Assembly: GCA_017964345.1 (NCBI GenBank)
Contig: JAGCSD010000059.1
Location: forward strand, 1-12,086
Direction of reading: 5' to 3'
Origin: Clostridia bacterium
GTDB lineage: Bacteria; Bacillota; Clostridia; Christensenellales; QALW01
Length of the DNA: 12,086 nt
Shown: piece by piece, positions 758-10,391 of the stretch
Layout: each line of letters opens with the position of its first letter
How positions within the stretch are numbered: position 1 is the stretch's first letter
Notes under the pieces: model-generated
The model's input: only the letters and a program-made list of their open reading frames with translations
Told to the model about the DNA's origin: nothing
Databases searched by the model: none
Translations under genes and position numbers: made by a program

Positions 758-2305
758 CTATTCAAAATCATCCTCGCCCGTATAGACGTGATGGGGATCG
801 TCCTGATGTTTCTCCTGCGTCTGCGGCGCAGGATCGTCCGTTTCCGGATCATCGGAAAGAACGACATCATAAGGATCGTTCCGTCCCCAATCGTGACTGC
901 GTTTGCGCGGATGTCGCGATGAAGAAGAGCCGTGGCGGATCAGCACGATTACGGCAATCAGCACGCCTATCAGGAGCAGTCCGGCGACAACGACCAGCAT
1001 ATTGACGAGCATCCAGTCGATGGAATCGTCCGACGCATGACCGGCAGCAGTCGGTGTGACCGACAATACATCGGTTACAACAGGCGCGGCGGCAGTACCT
1101 TCAAGCAAGGCGCCCGACGCCGTTTGCAGCGTACCGTCCGCTTCACAGTAGACCGCGGAAAACTCCTTGCCGGTGCTGTGCCGCAATGCCGTTACCACAT
1201 AATAACCGTCCCCAAGGAGCGGGATCGTCCAGCAGGGAAGTCCGTTCACGCTTGTTTTTTCCGATCCGGCAGGCAGACGGACAGGCGTTTTATCCAAAAT
1301 GGTAAACGCTTCGCCCGTCGTTTCCAGCCCGTGGTACAGGGTGAACGCGCCCGTGGTTTCGTCAAAAAGATATAAGTCGAATTCTTCACCGTCATTGATC
1401 TGCACCACGCGCAAGCTTCCCATGACGCCGCTCTCCACTTCTTCGTCCCGATACGTCAGTTTTTCCTGCAGGAAGCCGTCCGGCAGGGCGGTGTGCAGCG
1501 TGCGGCTGAGCGTGAACGCTTTTCCGTCGATCGTAACCGCAATATCCGGCGGTTCCGTGGCGACAGGCGTAGGCACAGGCGTTGCGGCACCTTCCGCCGC
1601 GCGGGTGATCGTGACGGTATATGTTTTGGTGGTGCCGTCCTGCGCGGTCACGCGTACCGAACGCGTGTTCGTACCGACTTTCAAGCTCAGCGAGCCGATA
1701 GGCGTGGCTTTTGCCTTGCTGTCAGAGAGCGTCCAATCGAGCGGGAATTTTTCCACCGCATACGGTACCGAGCAGGTGTAACTGGTCGTGTTGGGAGAAA
1801 ACTTAGGTGCAAGCGTACAGCCCGCCGGCGGCGTCAAACTCGTTAGGTTGCAGTCCGACGGAAGGTTCTTCGCTTTTACGGTCACCGTGGCGCTTGCCGA
1901 AGAGGTGTCGATGGATATAAAATCCTGATCGCTGATATCACTGCTCGTGACGCGCACAACAGCACTGCCCACCGCTTTGGCGGTAAAGGTGAACGTCGCC
2001 GTGTAAGTGGAGGACGTATTGTTGCTGTTGTATTCCGAAATTTTAATCGTTTCGCCCTGTACATTGACGCCGCTGCCGCCGAGTGAACCGGTATAGCTCT
2101 TGTATTCCAGATGCGCGCTGTCAAATTGCACGGTCAAGTCCACACTGCCGACGGCTTTGGATTCCTTAAAGGTGAACGTCACCTTCACCGTGTCACCGAC
2201 GTATACCTGACTTGCAGAAACCGACGCACTGCACGCGGCGTGCGCGATGAGGCACGGCGCGATCATCAGGAAAGTACAAAGCAAAAGTGCAAGCCATTTT
2301 TTCAT
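758..2305 (-). CDS. Membrane-anchored cohesin-domain protein with cadherin-like domain
   Basis: 515 residues. Seen in order: signal peptide (1-23, cleavage after AHA); a cohesin-like beta-sandwich (about 24-145) opening with SASQVYVGDTVKVTFTF and containing VDLTVQFDSAHLEY; a cadherin-like beta-sandwich (about 152-236: LTSLTPPAGCTLAPKFSPNT, then KTYTVTITR); a short Pro/Thr linker (237-254); a domain I do not recognise (about 255-405); one transmembrane helix (about 430-456); then RHPRKRS and an acidic Asp/His-rich cytoplasmic tail (457-515). There is no LPXTG or S-layer motif, so the helix is the anchor. Cohesins bind dockerins, and the gene immediately upstream in the operon ends in a dockerin, so this is probably the membrane receptor for that enzyme. 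The start has an AAGGAGG site overlapping the upstream stop, implying coupled translation. The cohesin call rests on motif resemblance by eye; pairing specificity is inferred. Confidence 0.85.
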   Translation of the reverse strand: MKKWLALLLCTFLMIAPCLIAHAACSASVSASQVYVGDTVKVTFTFKESKAVGSVDLTVQFDSAHLEYKSYTGSLGGSGVNVQGETIKISEYNSNNTSSTYTATFTFTAKAVGSAVVRVTSSDISDQDFISIDTSSASATVTVKAKNLPSDCNLTSLTPPAGCTLAPKFSPNTTSYTCSVPYAVEKFPLDWTLSDSKAKATPIGSLSLKVGTNTRSVRVTAQDGTTKTYTVTITRAAEGAATPVPTPVATEPPDIAVTIDGKAFTLSRTLHTALPDGFLQEKLTYRDEEVESGVMGSLRVVQINDGEEFDLYLFDETTGAFTLYHGLETTGEAFTILDKTPVRLPAGSEKTSVNGLPCWTIPLLGDGYYVVTALRHSTGKEFSAVYCEADGTLQTASGALLEGTAAAPVVTDVLSVTPTAAGHASDDSIDWMLVNMLVVVAGLLLIGVLIAVIVLIRHGSSSSRHPRKRSHDWGRNDPYDVVLSDDPETDDPAPQTQEKHQDDPHHVYTGEDDFE

Positions 2306-2313
2306 ATTCGTTT

Positions 2314-2320
2314 CCTCCTT
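2314..2320 (-). promoter_or_regulatory. Ribosome binding site overlapping upstream stop codon
   Basis: AAGGAGG on the minus strand shares its first two bases with the TAA stop (2321-2319) of the dockerin-enzyme gene and sits 8 bases before the cohesin-protein ATG. A ribosome finishing the enzyme would be placed to start the anchor, fitting stoichiometric production of two binding partners. Confidence 0.8.
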
Positions 2321-4325
2321 AGGAAAGCCCTAAAATGCGCTTCTGACAAGCCAGAAGATCGCGGGAATTAACTGTGCTATCGCGCGTAAAATCCGCCGCT
2401 TCCCTATGCGCGGCGTTTGTAAAAGCAGAAAGCCCTAAAATCGCCTTTTGCGTGCGCAGCAGATCGGCGCTGTTTAATTTGCCGTCGCCGTTGGAATCAC
2501 CGAATACCACAATCGTATAGACGGTCTGCTGTCCGTTATACGTCAGAACTAAACGGTCGCCCGTCGCCATCGCGGAAGTCGCGGGTTTTTCACTTCCCGC
2601 GGCGATTTGCAGAGAAATCGTATAGCCGCTCACCGTCTGCTTTGCCAAAAACGCGGCGCGTGTTTCTCCCACGGGAATACCGAGCAGCAGGTCATCTTTT
2701 ATCTGGTACGCGCTTTGGAATGCGGGCGCGGACGTCGGCGTCGGCGTGACCGTCGCTGTCGGCGAAGGCGTTCCCCCCGCCGCGGGCGTGGGCGTAGGCT
2801 CGTCCGGCGGCGTTTCGCCCGGCAAGGTCAAATACAGCGTGTAATCGCGCGTAAAGCCGTTGGTCGCCCGTACCGTGATCGTGATCTCATTCATACCGCC
2901 GTGAAGCGAGCGCGTTCCCGCGCCGCTCACAACAGCGCCGGCATCCTCCGGCACGGCGGTGATCGTAATGCTTTGTCTTTCCGAAAGCGTTTGTTCGTAT
3001 TCAAACGTATACCGGTCAAACGGCGTACGCAAGGTCACACCCTCAATGGAAAGCGATTTTAAGTAATTATTGCCGTTGCCTGTCTTCGGAACAGCGGGAC
3101 AAGGTTCCGCCGGCATATTGTTATAGACGGGGATCAAAAATTCCAGCGGAGATTCCTCCGCGGGTGATCCGACGATCGCGTTGCGGATCGGCGCGCATTC
3201 CAGCACGCCCGCGCTGACGCTGGTCATATACTGGTGATTATAATACCCGTTGCCGCCGTCCACCACGTCGTATTTTTGCAGATACAGCGTGTTCTGCCCG
3301 ACTCCTACATAGCTGTTCACCAAAAATTGAGCGCCGCCGAGGATCGCCTTATACGGTGTGTTCCAGCCTTTATTCTTGGCGTAGATCGCGCCGTTGACAA
3401 TAGCCGTGCGTCCGCTGTGCGCATAGGCGCCGATGTCAAAATGATTGTAATATCCTTCGTACCCGGGAACGGTTCCGTGCGCCAGCTTGTTCCCCACGCT
3501 GCCCTGCTCTAAGCGAATGCGCGCCGCCAGCAGGTACGGACTGCAGTTTGCCGCCATGCCGGCGGAAACGATCGCCTGCGGGTACGAAATACCGCCGCAG
3601 TCGCCGTTTTCCATGAACGTGCCGGCAAGCATCGTGCGCACGACCGTTTCGTTCACGGTGCTTTCATCAAAATCCAAAACGAGGAACTGATAAATATTGC
3701 TGTCCAGAAAATTGCGGGGATCCATGTAGTACGCGATCACTTCTTTGAGCGCCTGTACCCAGCCGCCGCTGTCAAAAGCGTACCATTTTTTGTTTTCCCA
3801 GTCATAGGCGCCCTTGTCATAGGACTTCCACGCGTCGGGAGATTGGAGCAGATTGCGCCCGATCACCCATTCGTTTGCCATTACATCGTTCCAATCCAAA
3901 TTCGTCATAAGCGGCGTGAAGCGCCATGCCGGATGAAGAGTGTGCAAGGTACGCAGTTTTTCATGATAACTGACCGGAAACAACTCCAATGTCGTTTCAA
4001 AATCCGCGTCTTCTCCCTGCTGTGCTTCGCGCAGCGTGATGAATTTTGCCATCACAAACCCTTCTTTGCCGTCGGCGCTGACGCGATACCAGTCGTTTTG
4101 CGACGTGTCTTTTGTGACGCCGGTCACGCGGACGATACTGCCTTTGACAAGAGAAGAAACGATCCCATAGGACGTACCGGGGCCGCTGCGCATATTCAGA
4201 TTGCTGCTGCTCGTGGTCACGGTTCCCCATGCGGACAGCTCCGCCACCTCGTACGCGCGCGCAGGCAGCACGACAAGACCGATCAAGCAGACAAACACCA
4301 ACAACAGAGCGAGCGTTTTGCGCAT
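2319..4325 (-). CDS. Dockerin-bearing SH3 / glucosaminidase peptidoglycan hydrolase
   Basis: 668 residues. Seen: signal peptide (1-24, ARA before YEVAE); SH3b domain (about 34-98, with LNMRSGPGTSYGIV and GKEGFVMAKFI); a GH73/LytD-type N-acetylglucosaminidase domain (about 120-395) with likely catalytic Glu273 in ARIRLEQGS and the downstream YYNHFDIGAY block; a cadherin-like beta-sandwich (about 420-500); a Pro/Thr linker (505-535); a small module (about 537-607); and a C-terminal dockerin (609-668). The dockerin has two EF-like calcium loops: D610, N612, D614, N618, D621, and D645, T647, D649, N653, D656. The family cleaves the GlcNAc-MurNAc bond of peptidoglycan; the SH3b domain would help bind the wall. 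Dockerins normally dock enzymes onto cohesins, and the next gene in the operon supplies one. ATG at 4325 has AAAGGAG 8 bases upstream and a clear promoter. Substrate could also be a wall glycan other than peptidoglycan. Confidence 0.93.
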   Translation of the reverse strand: MRKTLALLLVFVCLIGLVVLPARAYEVAELSAWGTVTTSSSNLNMRSGPGTSYGIVSSLVKGSIVRVTGVTKDTSQNDWYRVSADGKEGFVMAKFITLREAQQGEDADFETTLELFPVSYHEKLRTLHTLHPAWRFTPLMTNLDWNDVMANEWVIGRNLLQSPDAWKSYDKGAYDWENKKWYAFDSGGWVQALKEVIAYYMDPRNFLDSNIYQFLVLDFDESTVNETVVRTMLAGTFMENGDCGGISYPQAIVSAGMAANCSPYLLAARIRLEQGSVGNKLAHGTVPGYEGYYNHFDIGAYAHSGRTAIVNGAIYAKNKGWNTPYKAILGGAQFLVNSYVGVGQNTLYLQKYDVVDGGNGYYNHQYMTSVSAGVLECAPIRNAIVGSPAEESPLEFLIPVYNNMPAEPCPAVPKTGNGNNYLKSLSIEGVTLRTPFDRYTFEYEQTLSERQSITITAVPEDAGAVVSGAGTRSLHGGMNEITITVRATNGFTRDYTLYLTLPGETPPDEPTPTPAAGGTPSPTATVTPTPTSAPAFQSAYQIKDDLLLGIPVGETRAAFLAKQTVSGYTISLQIAAGSEKPATSAMATGDRLVLTYNGQQTVYTIVVFGDSNGDGKLNSADLLRTQKAILGLSAFTNAAHREAADFTRDSTVNSRDLLACQKRILGLS

Positions 4326-5514: not shown

Positions 5515-6615
5515 ATGAAAAAACTTCTTGCCGTGACGGTTTGCCTGCTTTGTCTGGTCGCCTTTTTTTCCGCATGCCGACCGTGGCAGACCATCGGCGG
5601 CAACACGGCGTCCATTCCTACGCGCATACCGTATTCGCCTTCCTCGTCCGCCGCGTTCACGCCATCATCGGCTGATCCGAGCGGTTCCCCGCTGCCCGCC
5701 ACGCCCGACACCGATTCGTCCGCGCCCGTTACGCCGACACCCACCTTATATATTCGCCCCGCGCAAACAGAAAGTATCGTTCCCTCCGCGCTTCTGACGG
5801 TCGGCTATACCACGCCGCTGAAGGATGCGCCCAAGGGATATCGGATGCCGTATTACATCGAAGTCGATATCAGCAACCAGTGTGTCAATATCTTTGTAAA
5901 AAACAAAGCCACGGGCAAATATGATGTTCTGCTCAATCGCTTCATCTGCTCCGGCGGGACAAGCACCAATCCCACGCTGACCGGAGAGTTCTACATCAAA
6001 ACGCAGGAACAGCAGAGAGCCGCCACAGGGCAGAATCTCAAATACAAGCGGTATTACTTCCAAAAATACGAGTCTTATGCCTATTATGTAACGCGATATA
6101 AAAATGAATATATGTTTCATTCCTTTACCTTTGCACAGGTAAACGGAAAAGTCGTTCCGAAATCCGGCGCCTATTATAATATGGGAAATCCCGGCAGCGC
6201 AGGTTGTTTGCGTATGCTGATGAACCATGCCAAATGGATCTATGATAATGTCGACGGCGGAACGTATTGCGTTGTGACCAAAAACCGCCCGGTCGACAGC
6301 ACGCTGCGCGCCACACTGAAAAAGTATCTCCCACCGCTTGGTTGGGATATGCTGGCGGACTATGAGCCGGGTAACAATTCGCACGGGCTTGTGCGAACCG
6401 AGTTGGTAAGCAATCCCGATGTTGTTCCCACGCCCAAACCTACACCGGTGGAAGAATCTCCGACGCCGGACAATTCGGAAGAGCCGAGCGTTTCTCCCGA
6501 CGTTACGCCGACCGCAACGCCCACCGAAGTGCCGAGCGACGAAGCCTCTCCGACGGGAACAACGACGTCCCCGACCGACACACCGACAGCATCTTCCGAT
6601 ACGCAGGAACCATAA
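5515..6615 (+). CDS. L,D-transpeptidase (YkuD domain) lipoprotein
   Basis: 366 residues. A lipoprotein-type signal ends in FFSAC (likely lipidated Cys21). A Pro/Ser/Thr-rich stretch (about 30-80) leads to a YkuD catalytic domain (about 111-256) beginning PYYIEVDISNQCVNIFV, with FICSGG, the conserved His in MFHSF (His202) and the active-site motif GSAGCLRM (Cys231, Arg233). The family makes 3-3 cross-links in peptidoglycan or attaches proteins to it through the Cys thioester. The usual SHGC motif reads SAGC here, so one commonly conserved His is Ala; the catalytic Cys, upstream His and Arg remain, so activity is expected. A second Pro/Thr/Ser/Glu-rich tail (about 301-366) follows. GAAGGAG lies 8 bases upstream of the ATG at 5515. 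Located outside the membrane, next to other wall-acting genes. Confidence 0.92.
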   Translation: MKKLLAVTVCLLCLVAFFSACRPWQTIGGNTASIPTRIPYSPSSSAAFTPSSADPSGSPLPATPDTDSSAPVTPTPTLYIRPAQTESIVPSALLTVGYTTPLKDAPKGYRMPYYIEVDISNQCVNIFVKNKATGKYDVLLNRFICSGGTSTNPTLTGEFYIKTQEQQRAATGQNLKYKRYYFQKYESYAYYVTRYKNEYMFHSFTFAQVNGKVVPKSGAYYNMGNPGSAGCLRMLMNHAKWIYDNVDGGTYCVVTKNRPVDSTLRATLKKYLPPLGWDMLADYEPGNNSHGLVRTELVSNPDVVPTPKPTPVEESPTPDNSEEPSVSPDVTPTATPTEVPSDEASPTGTTTSPTDTPTASSDTQEP

Positions 6616-7024: not shown

Positions 7025-8425
7025 TTATTCAATGTATTTCCAGTGATAGCCATTTGAAGATTTACTTTTCCCGCGACAGCATTGGCGAATTGCCGACGGG
7101 ACGGTGCCATATTGTTCTCCCGCTTGAATTGCTGAGTCAAAAACTTCCCCAGTTTCTATATTCATTACTCTTTTCTTAGGCGTGCCCATTTTACTTTTTG
7201 AACATGTTGGGCAGCCATTATTGTCGGAGTTAAAATGTTCTTTTCTTAAAAGACTTCCAGGTGTCGGATCCCATACGGTTCCGCATTTTAAGCATTGGAC
7301 TTTAATAGGTTTATGACGACCGACGTATTCTCCAATTACCTTTATGGTAGGTATAAGATTTTTCAATTCATTTTCGAAGTCCTCCTGCTTGCGCCTTTCT
7401 TTGTGGCCACGATTTTTAGCACCGCATTTCCTGCAACCGTCTCCTGCAAGCAGACTAGCGGGAATACCATTCCAAGAAAAACCACATTTTCTGCATTTGA
7501 CCGCAATTCTACGATTTGCATTTTCATATTTTCCGATAACTTCTATATCAGGCCTAATTGCAGATAGTCTTTTGATAAACTCTTCATGCGTTAGGGATTT
7601 TGATTTCTCATAGGCTTGTTCTTCGAGGGCATCCCATTCTGCTTGAGAAAAATTTCTAACAATTTCGCATTGTGAGAACAATTCATTTATGAGATTGTGG
7701 ATGACTGTATGATCTACTTTATTTAAGTCATCATGGTAGACATAGCAATTATCTAAAAACGGAGGCTCTGTATTCTCTGGATATTTGTCATATATAGTAA
7801 TTAGCCTAAATCCTATTTCTCTGCAGCGAAGTCTTTTTTCCGTATCTCTTTTGAGTGATTGTTTATGAAGAAACCAATTGCCCGGCTCGATTGCTAGTTT
7901 GTATTCCGGAATAACAATATCCAATTCCATTCCAACTAGTGATTTATTTCTAGAAAGAACATACTTGTCACCAATGACTTCACGAAAACTCAGGAGAATC
8001 AATTGTTCCATAAAACTTGTTCCTGATTTTGCGCATCTTGGACAACCGTGTCCTTGTAACAAGGAATAAGGTTTTGCACTCCATTCATGACCGCATCTTT
8101 GGCATGCAAATCTTATAGAATCTTTATTGCTAGTATATGAGTCTAAGGGCTCAATATCGGGATGTAGTTTTCTTAATTCTTCGCGAAATTGCTTGTCTGT
8201 TTTCGTTCCTGTAATTCCTTTATTATTGTGAGAGCCTCTTATTGCGCTGCAATGTGGACATGACTTTCCAGATGCTAATGAATATGCTGCCGGATGCCAG
8301 ACCTTGCCGCATTTCTTGCATTTAACTTCAATATGATCAACTGCTCGTGTGTATTTTCCTATAACTTCAATTTCTGGATTAATCGTCAATAGTTCTTTTA
8401 CAAAATCTTCATGCGTTTTTGCCAT
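7025..8425 (-). CDS. Vsr-like (EDxHD) homing-endonuclease-like protein with four zinc modules and NUMOD1
   Basis: 466 residues from the ATG at 8425. Four similar modules share the pattern F..L....P.I.vig.Y......i.vkC..Cg..W....sLl.g.gC..C; Cys pairs are 36/39+56/59, 108/111+128/131, 311/314+331/334 and 378/381+405/408, as in treble-clef zinc fingers. Between modules 2 and 3 lies a PD-(D/E)XK/Vsr-type nuclease core: SFMEQ (Glu140), MELDIVIPEYKLAIE (Asp169, Glu180), His187, Asp194 and GFRLITIYD, matching the E-D-x-H-D pattern of phage Vsr-like homing endonucleases. The C-terminus (about 418-466, IETGEVFDSAIQAG through GYHWKYIE) is a NUMOD1-type DNA-binding module. A longer frame starts at 8503, but its extra 26 residues fit no module and lack a ribosome site. 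AT-rich codon use unlike neighbours suggests recent transfer. It probably makes a site-specific DNA cut; a defence role is an alternative. Confidence 0.85.
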   Translation of the reverse strand: MAKTHEDFVKELLTINPEIEVIGKYTRAVDHIEVKCKKCGKVWHPAAYSLASGKSCPHCSAIRGSHNNKGITGTKTDKQFREELRKLHPDIEPLDSYTSNKDSIRFACQRCGHEWSAKPYSLLQGHGCPRCAKSGTSFMEQLILLSFREVIGDKYVLSRNKSLVGMELDIVIPEYKLAIEPGNWFLHKQSLKRDTEKRLRCREIGFRLITIYDKYPENTEPPFLDNCYVYHDDLNKVDHTVIHNLINELFSQCEIVRNFSQAEWDALEEQAYEKSKSLTHEEFIKRLSAIRPDIEVIGKYENANRRIAVKCRKCGFSWNGIPASLLAGDGCRKCGAKNRGHKERRKQEDFENELKNLIPTIKVIGEYVGRHKPIKVQCLKCGTVWDPTPGSLLRKEHFNSDNNGCPTCSKSKMGTPKKRVMNIETGEVFDSAIQAGEQYGTVPSAIRQCCRGKSKSSNGYHWKYIE

Positions 8426-8576
8426 TATTCCACAGCCTTTGTTTTGTGATATTATTGTCTTCTGGTGAGCCGCATATTCGATTGAGGATAATACTACGGC
8501 CATTATACCGACTAACAGATAAAAAATCTAGCTCACTAGAGTTAGTGCTAACTGCAGGGCTTCGTCTACCACGCAT
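8409..8576 (-). CDS. Possible small upstream ORF or gene remnant (55 codons)
   Basis: A frame starting MRGRRSPAVST and ending at the TGA at 8411-8409 overlaps the first codons of the nuclease gene. AGGAGG (8596-8591) lies 8 bases before an in-frame TTG (8582) and 14 before this ATG. The frame is open without a stop back to 8723, so it may instead be the 3' end of a degraded gene. I recognise no family. It could couple translation into the nuclease gene, whose own start lacks a good ribosome site, but chance is not excluded. Confidence 0.25.
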   Translation of the reverse strand: MRGRRSPAVSTNSSELDFLSVSRYNGRSIILNRICGSPEDNNITKQRLWNNGKNA

Positions 8577-9158: not shown

Positions 9159-10391
9159 ATGAAGCATTTGCGTCGTATATTGATTGGAATTCTGTTGATC
9201 TGTTTGCTGGCAGGCTGTGCGGCAAGCGTACCGGCGACGGTATGCGTGATCCGCGCATCCGGGCTGGAGGAAAAGGCGGTTACGATTCGTTCGCTCACGC
9301 CGGAAAACTTGATTTCGATTTTGATAGAAGAAGGTGTTTTACCGCAAAATATCACGGTTAAGTCTTTCTCGCAGGACACAGAAGTGCTGTATTTGGATAT
9401 GAACGAGGCGATCCTTCCGCATTTGACGCAGTATCAGCCGGTCGGTCAGAAAATGATCGTGCAGTGCGTCGCCAACACGTTTTTGAAGAATTATCAGGCG
9501 CAAAGCATCACGATACGCTGCAACGGACTCGCCATTGCCGATGCGTCCGCGGATTTTACCGCGCCGATGACGTATGACATGATGACGGGCGTGGATCCGA
9601 TGACGACGCCGACGCCCGTTCCCACGCCCACGCCTACGCCGACACTGACGCCGACGATCGAACCGACGCCGGGCGTCAAAACATCCGCAACGCCCTCCGT
9701 ATCGGGGGAAACAAAGATCATCGTTCCCACAAGCAAGGCGACGCCTCAGCCCGGCAAAACGCTCACAGAGGGGAAGAAGTACGTTGCGTTGACGTTCGAC
9801 GACGGTCCGCATTCCAAATATACCCGTATGTTCGTGGATAAACTGAAAGAATACGACGCACACGCTACTTTCTTCATCGTAGGCAACCGTGTGGACGATT
9901 CCACTGCGGACGCCATGCGCTATGCGGTGGAGAACGGCAATGAAATTCAGATCCACGGTTATACGCACGCATCGTCCGTTTATTATCACAACTGTTCAGA
10001 CGAACGGTACGCCTATGAACTCAACGAAACCGCCAAGGTTATCGTGGACGCGGTCGGCATCGCGCCGACTTTGATGCGTCCTTTCGGCGGTTCCATTACG
10101 AAGGAACGCGTTGCGTCCTGCCCGTATTCCGTCGTGATCTGGGACGTGGACACCGAAGACTGGAGATACAAATCCAAAGGGGAGAGCGGCAGGGAGATCA
10201 TCGTCAACAACGCGATGAAAAACGTACGGGATCGCAGTATCATCCTGATGCATGAAATATATGAAAACTCGTATCTCGCGTTTTGCACCATCATCGAACG
10301 GCTTTACGCGCAAGGGTACGAAGTCGTTTCCGTCAGTGAGCTTTTGGGAAATAACGCCAAGCCCGGCACGCGATACTACGCGGGATATTGA
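9159..10391 (+). CDS. GerMN / NodB polysaccharide deacetylase lipoprotein
   Basis: 410 residues. Lipobox LLAGC gives lipidated Cys20. Residues about 40-130 (SLTPENLISILIEEGVLP, then CVANTFLKNYQAQSITI) resemble a GerMN domain. A TPTPTPT linker (about 149-200) leads to a NodB domain (about 207-390): motif 1 LTFDDGP (Asp214, Asp215), motif 2 HGYTH (His266, His270), motif 3 RPFGG (Arg307), motif 4 DVDTEDW, motif 5 ILMHE (His365). The metal ligands Asp-His-His are all present, so N- or O-deacetylation of peptidoglycan or another wall glycan on the outer face of the membrane is expected. Motif 2 has Gly where the family usually has Ser/Thr. AAGGAA precedes the ATG at 9159. A bidirectional terminator follows. 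GerMN domains occur in germination and wall lipoproteins; their role next to NodB is unknown. Confidence 0.93.
   Translation: MKHLRRILIGILLICLLAGCAASVPATVCVIRASGLEEKAVTIRSLTPENLISILIEEGVLPQNITVKSFSQDTEVLYLDMNEAILPHLTQYQPVGQKMIVQCVANTFLKNYQAQSITIRCNGLAIADASADFTAPMTYDMMTGVDPMTTPTPVPTPTPTPTLTPTIEPTPGVKTSATPSVSGETKIIVPTSKATPQPGKTLTEGKKYVALTFDDGPHSKYTRMFVDKLKEYDAHATFFIVGNRVDDSTADAMRYAVENGNEIQIHGYTHASSVYYHNCSDERYAYELNETAKVIVDAVGIAPTLMRPFGGSITKERVASCPYSVVIWDVDTEDWRYKSKGESGREIIVNNAMKNVRDRSIILMHEIYENSYLAFCTIIERLYAQGYEVVSVSELLGNNAKPGTRYYAGY

Follow-up and report, generated by a model that had tools for sequence, protein, structure and literature searches.

What does a cohesin-dockerin pair do when the protein that carries the dockerin is a cell wall hydrolase? 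Cohesins and dockerins are the textbook tool for the extracellular assembly of plant-fibre enzymes, and the question is raised by two adjoining genes at positions 758 to 4,325 of the window, by which we mean the whole stretch of DNA analyzed here (12,086 nucleotides (nt); contig JAGCSD010000059.1 of the Clostridia bacterium assembly GCA_017964345.1). The first gene encodes a predicted GH73 glucosaminidase that ends in a dockerin (the enzyme), and the second a cohesin protein with a membrane helix (the anchor). The operon probably encodes a dedicated membrane tether for a peptidoglycan hydrolase, because the pair is conserved in other genomes, its cargo has been swapped, and the divergence of its cohesins and dockerins is correlated. 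A preliminary description of this DNA had proposed a tethered autolysin in a system of one cohesin and one dockerin; the same three lines of evidence support the dedicated membrane cohesin, and the one-to-one part was not borne out in this genome.

The two proteins of the operon

Both open reading frames (ORFs) lie on the minus strand in the order originally described, enzyme then anchor, with a gap of 13 nt before the ATG of the anchor at 2305. The proposed stop/Shine-Dalgarno overlap is seen in the positions that the two signals share. The features of the pair, with protein positions in amino acids (aa), are as follows:

2319..4325, minus strand: enzyme gene, 668 aa, with signal peptide, SH3, GH73, cadherin-like, X module and dockerin
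4038..4205, minus strand: SH3_3 domain, aa 41-96 (Pfam E 2e-13)
3102..3935, minus strand: GH73 glucosaminidase domain, SagB-like, aa 131-408
2829..3062, minus strand: cadherin-like beta sandwich of the enzyme, aa 422-499 (below the Pfam cut-off)
2511..2729, minus strand: X module preceding the dockerin, aa about 533-605, without a Pfam name
2322..2510, minus strand: type I dockerin, aa 606-668, two loops, the second degenerate
2314..2320, minus strand: Shine-Dalgarno sequence of the anchor, AAGGAGG (read 2320-2314), overlapping the enzyme stop codon TAA (2321-2319)
758..2305, minus strand: anchor gene, 515 aa, with signal peptide, cohesin, cadherin-like, juxtamembrane domain, transmembrane helix and acidic tail
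1868..2248, minus strand: cohesin domain, aa 20-146
1601..1813, minus strand: cadherin-like beta sandwich of the anchor, aa 165-235 (Pfam E 2.1e-9)
1106..1543, minus strand: juxtamembrane beta domain, aa about 255-400, conserved
929..1015, minus strand: transmembrane helix, aa 431-459
761..928, minus strand: acidic tail, predicted to be cytosolic, ending in DDFE

The dockerin was recognized by the Dockerin_1 profile (PF00404; aa 609-665, E 5.6e-9, 36.5 bits against a cut-off of 22.9), and its predicted structure lies 0.9 Å from 2ccl_B. Row one of the A2 structural model (P0095) is the window enzyme in its database version, in which at least one residue of the dockerin is different. The earlier wording of a canonical two-loop dockerin fits the two calcium loop-helix repeats and loop 1 (DSNGDGKLNSAD), and has to be relaxed for loop 2 (DFTRDSTVNSRD), which is degenerate.

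The SH3/GH73 nature of the cargo was confirmed, with SH3_3 recognized directly by Pfam. The GH73 region had no Pfam hit, and its assignment is based on a match to NCBIfam SagB (E 1.4e-19; 70.4 bits, the model cut-off of 425 being far above), on matches to PDB sequences of SagB and the Atl glucosaminidase (E about 1e-13 to 6e-13; 6fxp/6u0o at about 1e-13) and on the predicted fold, which is a GH73 fold with the conserved Glu and has SagB as its nearest fold. Glu273 is invariant across 24 aligned sequences. Cadherin-like sandwiches are indeed present in both proteins; that of the enzyme scored 20.8 bits, below the Pfam cut-off of 24.2, but matched the cadherin-like part of the anchor profile at 1.1e-14.

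In the anchor, the cohesin-like domain was identified by PF00963 (E 5.9e-6, 27.0 bits against a cut-off of 24.1), and a cohesin beta-sandwich fold was obtained by structure prediction; row one of the A4 structural model is the window anchor itself in its database version (100% identity). The only C-terminal helix is that at 431-459, in agreement with the single membrane helix originally described. A lipoprotein anchor through the Cys near the end of the signal peptide was considered and judged unlikely, since this Cys is not conserved. The juxtamembrane domain, which the preliminary description had passed over, had no Pfam or NCBIfam hit; a two-fold repeat within it beat all 300 shuffles in five of six relatives, with 70 of 300 shuffles scoring as high in the sixth and 214 of 300 for the window copy. 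As described before, Pfam revealed no carbohydrate-binding module in either protein, a genome-wide search for such modules not having been made.

Conservation of the pair and exchange of its cargo

The pair is also carried by the same-genus genomes G001 and G002, in the latter with the enzyme cut by a contig end. Among 248 genomes of the order, the anchor profile was matched at E 1e-20 or better in 12 and the enzyme profile at 1e-40 in nine, seven of which had an anchor match as well. A broader anchor profile (A5), applied at 1e-12 to 391 genomes of the class, was matched in at least 93, many of them through the cadherin-like part only. From 37 of these 93 genomes, 40 regions were read, chosen for a match that extended over the cohesin, the juxtamembrane part or both, which left out many genomes that matched the cadherin-like part only. 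With an anchor-like ORF defined by a cohesin-type match and a C-terminal hydrophobic helix, 54 anchors were obtained (that of the window, 10 in the same-genus and order loci and 43 in the 40 regions); L084 and L149 (contig-end cuts), L085 and a cohesin-dockerin adaptor of G001 fell outside this filter.

A dockerin ORF lies directly upstream on the same strand for 37 of the 54 anchors, and the conservation of the pair that the preliminary description had proposed to survey is thus found well beyond the window. Peptidoglycan hydrolases by family account for 29 of these 37 upstream genes, with four kinds in one operon position (GH73 23, SpoIID 4, Amidase_3 1 and GH25 1). The rest were subtilases (2), transglutaminase/LRR proteins (2), a protein with Glug repeats, a cohesin-dockerin adaptor, one unknown and one gene cut by a contig end. 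GH73 cargoes were assigned by the A2 profile and the others by Pfam, and the gene of G175 (L079) was counted as GH73 despite the stop codon that splits it. The X module is common to these otherwise unrelated cargo proteins, as the A2 enzyme profile matches amidase and SpoIID cargoes from about position 516 to the dockerin and GH25 cargoes from 527. Altogether, the pair is shared by more than one organism, and its arrangement is found widely.

The 17 anchors without an upstream dockerin comprised nine of genus g167 and that of L146, which stand beside a GH73 gene without dockerin, three second anchors of tandem pairs, one at a contig edge and three others (L150, L151 and the second of L155). 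L126, L128 and L129 each have two tandem membrane anchors, with a SpoIID-dockerin gene before the first and no readable dockerin ORF before the second. At L076 (4527-6707, G001), a gene encoding a cohesin with cadherin-like repeats and a transmembrane helix comes after a cohesin-dockerin adaptor gene, an arrangement that could be a relay version of the same socket.

The cargo was further compared with the juxtamembrane domain, scored as present at a profile coverage of at least 100 positions, a threshold fixed after the data had been seen. Wall hydrolases adjoined 26 of the 27 domain-bearing anchors with a dockerin neighbor (the 27th neighbor being cut by the contig end), compared with three of the ten dockerin cargoes of anchors without the domain; these counts are not independent, because the genomes are related. 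Ten more domain-bearing anchors (nine of genus g167 and one of G563) adjoin a GH73 gene without dockerin, in genomes without any Pfam dockerin, and the domain therefore tracks wall-hydrolase cargo also in the absence of a dockerin. The g167 loci (L131, L133, L134, L135, L138, L139, L140, L142 and L154) each have GH73 beside an anchor with a diverged cohesin-like domain. Possibly the snap-fastener was lost in g167 and the pair retained, and some lineages may in this way have dispensed with the dockerin.

These counts also bear on the strongest of the alternatives, in which the main role of the anchor is that of a receptor or regulator, its juxtamembrane domain and acidic tail sensing or gating wall cutting, with cohesin-dockerin binding secondary. 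The distribution of wall-hydrolase neighbors under the post hoc threshold, the ten anchors beside dockerin-less GH73 and the acidic tail, often DDFE-like at its end among close relatives of the anchor, would all fit such a role. However, neither Pfam nor NCBIfam revealed a signalling domain, anchors lacking the juxtamembrane domain still pair with dockerins, and the relatedness of the genomes weakens the counts, and we consider this alternative unlikely.

Probable specificity of the pair, and its surroundings

The genome of the window (73% complete, 1.02 Mb, 204 contigs) contains eight dockerins and six cohesins, and the strict one-to-one claim therefore fails there and was rejected. The absence of a scaffoldin array, also claimed earlier, is only partly right: there is none in the pair proteins, but another protein of the genome, C83 (L016 1890-3563), combines two cohesins with GHDY repeats and with a dockerin that belongs to a second class (LLARYLAKWGGEY type). 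Cohesin and dockerin also occur together in an adaptor (C42) and in a surface protein (C173) of this genome, and C111 is a dockerin protein that looks transglutaminase-like by eye.

The window dockerin shares 18-27% identity with the other seven of its genome, whereas its identity is 67% with the pair dockerin of G001 and 37% with that of G002. For the window cohesin, identity is 19-26% with the five others of the genome and 50% and 35% with the pair cohesins of G001 and G002, respectively. Five of the other dockerins are mutually 52-63% identical (four pairs compared). Judged from these identities, the window pair looks like a separate specificity class.

Divergence was compared over 21 of 22 GH73 pairs, the cut gene of G002 having been dropped; the split gene of G175 and the non-GH73 pairs lay outside this set. 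In these related sequences, cohesin and dockerin distances were correlated (Mantel rho 0.41, p 0.0004) and remained so with GH73 distance controlled (0.38, p 0.0008), and no clear correlation was seen between cohesin and GH73 distances (0.16, p 0.11). Dockerin distances were correlated with those of the GH73 domain to which the dockerin is joined (0.33, p 0.004). In 17 pairs, they were also correlated with those of the juxtamembrane domain (0.34, p 0.003; 0.25, p 0.024 with GH73 and cohesin controlled). The correlated divergence of cohesin and dockerin is the pattern expected of a binding pair, and is not proof of binding.

Genomes with a single dockerin were also counted. Exactly one is present in 16 of 49 anchor-bearing genomes (12 + 37, all selected by an anchor-profile match), and it lies beside the anchor in all 16. 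By Pfam, a single cohesin was matched in eleven of these (in one case below the cut-off), two cohesins in one, and none in the remaining four, where the anchor was recognized by profile. The earlier idea of one cohesin and one dockerin, wrong for the genome of the window, thus applies by Pfam count to 11 of the 49.

In the less selected set of 391 class genomes, 183 have a dockerin and 76 exactly one (E 1e-4). A membrane cohesin directly follows the single dockerin in 17 of the 76, namely eight identified previously and nine of the 68 others; in most, 58, the dockerin is of another type or stands at a contig end that prevents a judgment. In G459 (L167 1062-3142), two membrane proteins stand behind the GH73-dockerin gene and the second has the cohesin hit; by eye, this second protein also has an SH3-like segment and a transmembrane helix. 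Ten single-dockerin genomes have the dockerin on GH73, and nine of the ten, counting G459, have the membrane cohesin; G600 has a GH25 with dockerin in the same layout. As Pfam was run on only eight of these 68 proteins with a dockerin, non-GH73 wall hydrolases may have escaped notice among them. There are three counter-examples: G319 has no membrane-cohesin neighbor on its strand, and neither do L024 and L026, which were found by a separate search route.

The other cohesins and dockerins of the genome suggest another alternative, namely that the hydrolase docks on those cohesins and the anchor serves those dockerins, with the operon forming one part of a small surface scaffold. The numbers of both domains in a genome that is only 73% complete, together with the two-cohesin protein and the adaptor, would be in line with this. 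Against it stand the low identities of the window pair to the rest, the mutual likeness of the five other dockerins and the 16 other genomes in which there is no second dockerin, and there is only a small chance that it is correct.

Around the pair, the downstream ParA-type gene was dropped as an operon member, as blastp against the ORFs of 52 other loci gave no hit at 1e-4, and the HAD gene on the other side was matched in one of the 52 (the same-genus G001, 68.6%). Further wall genes within the window encode a YkuD L,D-transpeptidase (5515-6615, plus strand) and a polysaccharide deacetylase (9159-10391, plus strand), the latter with a weak Germane-domain match as well. Another gene (7025-8503, minus strand) encodes repeated zinc-ribbon units of the CapR/DUF4379 type, followed by an end with weak likeness to NUMOD, and may belong to a mobile or homing element.

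Relation to known systems and proposed role

In Staphylococcus aureus, SagB is regulated by the membrane protein SpdC (LyrA), an integral membrane protein of the CAAX-protease family, and the complex cuts nascent peptidoglycan from its membrane lipid anchor (PMC12272431). The window enzyme resembles SagB by predicted fold, with the NCBIfam SagB score of 70.4 bits lying far below the cut-off of 425. In contrast to SpdC, the proposed holder here is a cohesin protein predicted to cross the membrane once, for which Pfam gave no CAAX hit, and the enzyme has a dockerin. On our best reading, the operon would encode a membrane socket for peptidoglycan hydrolases, SagB-SpdC-like in logic and built from cellulosome parts; the parallel in purpose is one of analogy.

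The predicted cohesin and dockerin folds are those of type I cellulosome systems. Unlike a cellulosome, which is recognized by a multi-cohesin scaffoldin, carbohydrate-binding module and plant-polymer enzymes, the two pair proteins have a single cohesin, no carbohydrate-binding module that was found, a wall hydrolase as cargo, one transmembrane helix and a partner encoded in the operon.

Closer precedents have been published for each half. Proteins with a single cohesin and a C-terminal transmembrane helix, as in the anchor, have been described as nonSLH-anchoring scaffoldins; they were noted in Lachnoclostridium sp. MSJ-17 and also in H. luporum and C. cibarium, where their partners are unclear. 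That survey looked for genomes with a multi-cohesin protein and a dockerin-bearing glycoside hydrolase, and its consulted sections state no peptidoglycan role or operon partner (PMC11557425). Dockerins on wall hydrolases, as in the enzyme, are reported for R. albus, of which three strains have one such GH73 each (PMC4081043 Table 3), and for a lysozyme of R. champanellensis and others (PMC6403190). These come from cellulosome studies, in whose consulted sections no dedicated membrane cohesin is described. X modules of R. bromii adjoin domains annotated as wall hydrolases or autolysins (PMC5814915). The two types of protein have thus each been published, and a search of the open-access literature found no paper that connects a membrane cohesin with wall hydrolases bearing dockerins. 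The source names listed for relatives of the G480 anchor say cadherin-like domain or 'hypothetical' and omit cohesin, and the system is therefore easily overlooked.

The lysozyme activity of the Ruminococcus champanellensis cellulosome and the dockerin-bearing wall hydrolases reported in a review (PMC6403190) could also suggest that the displayed enzyme attacks other cells, in competition or as a lysozyme. However, a single transmembrane helix would be expected to keep it at the membrane, beneath the Gram-positive wall, and SagB, the nearest predicted fold, is described as acting on the nascent wall of its own cell (PMC12272431), which leaves this alternative improbable. A link through the cadherin-like sandwiches or shared expression only, with the cohesin-like domain not binding this dockerin, would make use of the related domains in both proteins, but is very improbable given that G045, G138 and G208 keep the pair without a cadherin-like match in either protein and that cohesin and dockerin distances are correlated.

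For the membrane tether, the following sequence of events is proposed. Both proteins would be exported, and the anchor, held in the membrane by its C-terminal helix, would present its cohesin to the dockerin of the enzyme, which would bind in the calcium-dependent manner of cellulosomes. The putative glucosaminidase would thus be kept near the membrane, with the SH3 domain gripping the wall and the juxtamembrane domain positioning or gating the enzyme, and may cut newly made glycan strands close to the end at the membrane, as has been described for SagB bound by SpdC. That trimming or release of nascent glycan is the purpose is a more tentative suggestion, made by the same analogy. Equally speculative is a general clostridial 'hydrolase socket', in which a gating or positioning domain joined to a cohesin would receive dockerin-plugged GH73, SpoIID, amidase and GH25 enzymes that were exchanged in evolution; with such a socket, cohesin-dockerin binding may serve self-directed wall remodelling in bacteria without a cellulosome.

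Relatives of the G480 anchor are named from Lacrimispora, Hungatella and Clostridium boliviensis, which indicates culturable hosts for a test. The genomes with one Pfam cohesin and one Pfam dockerin provide a set of natural cohesin-dockerin pairs, and a testable partner is offered for the dockerins of single-dockerin genomes. Cellulosome parts here appear to keep enzymes that cut the wall of their own cell at its membrane, across many Clostridia and several hydrolase classes, in what may be a clostridial counterpart of SagB-SpdC.

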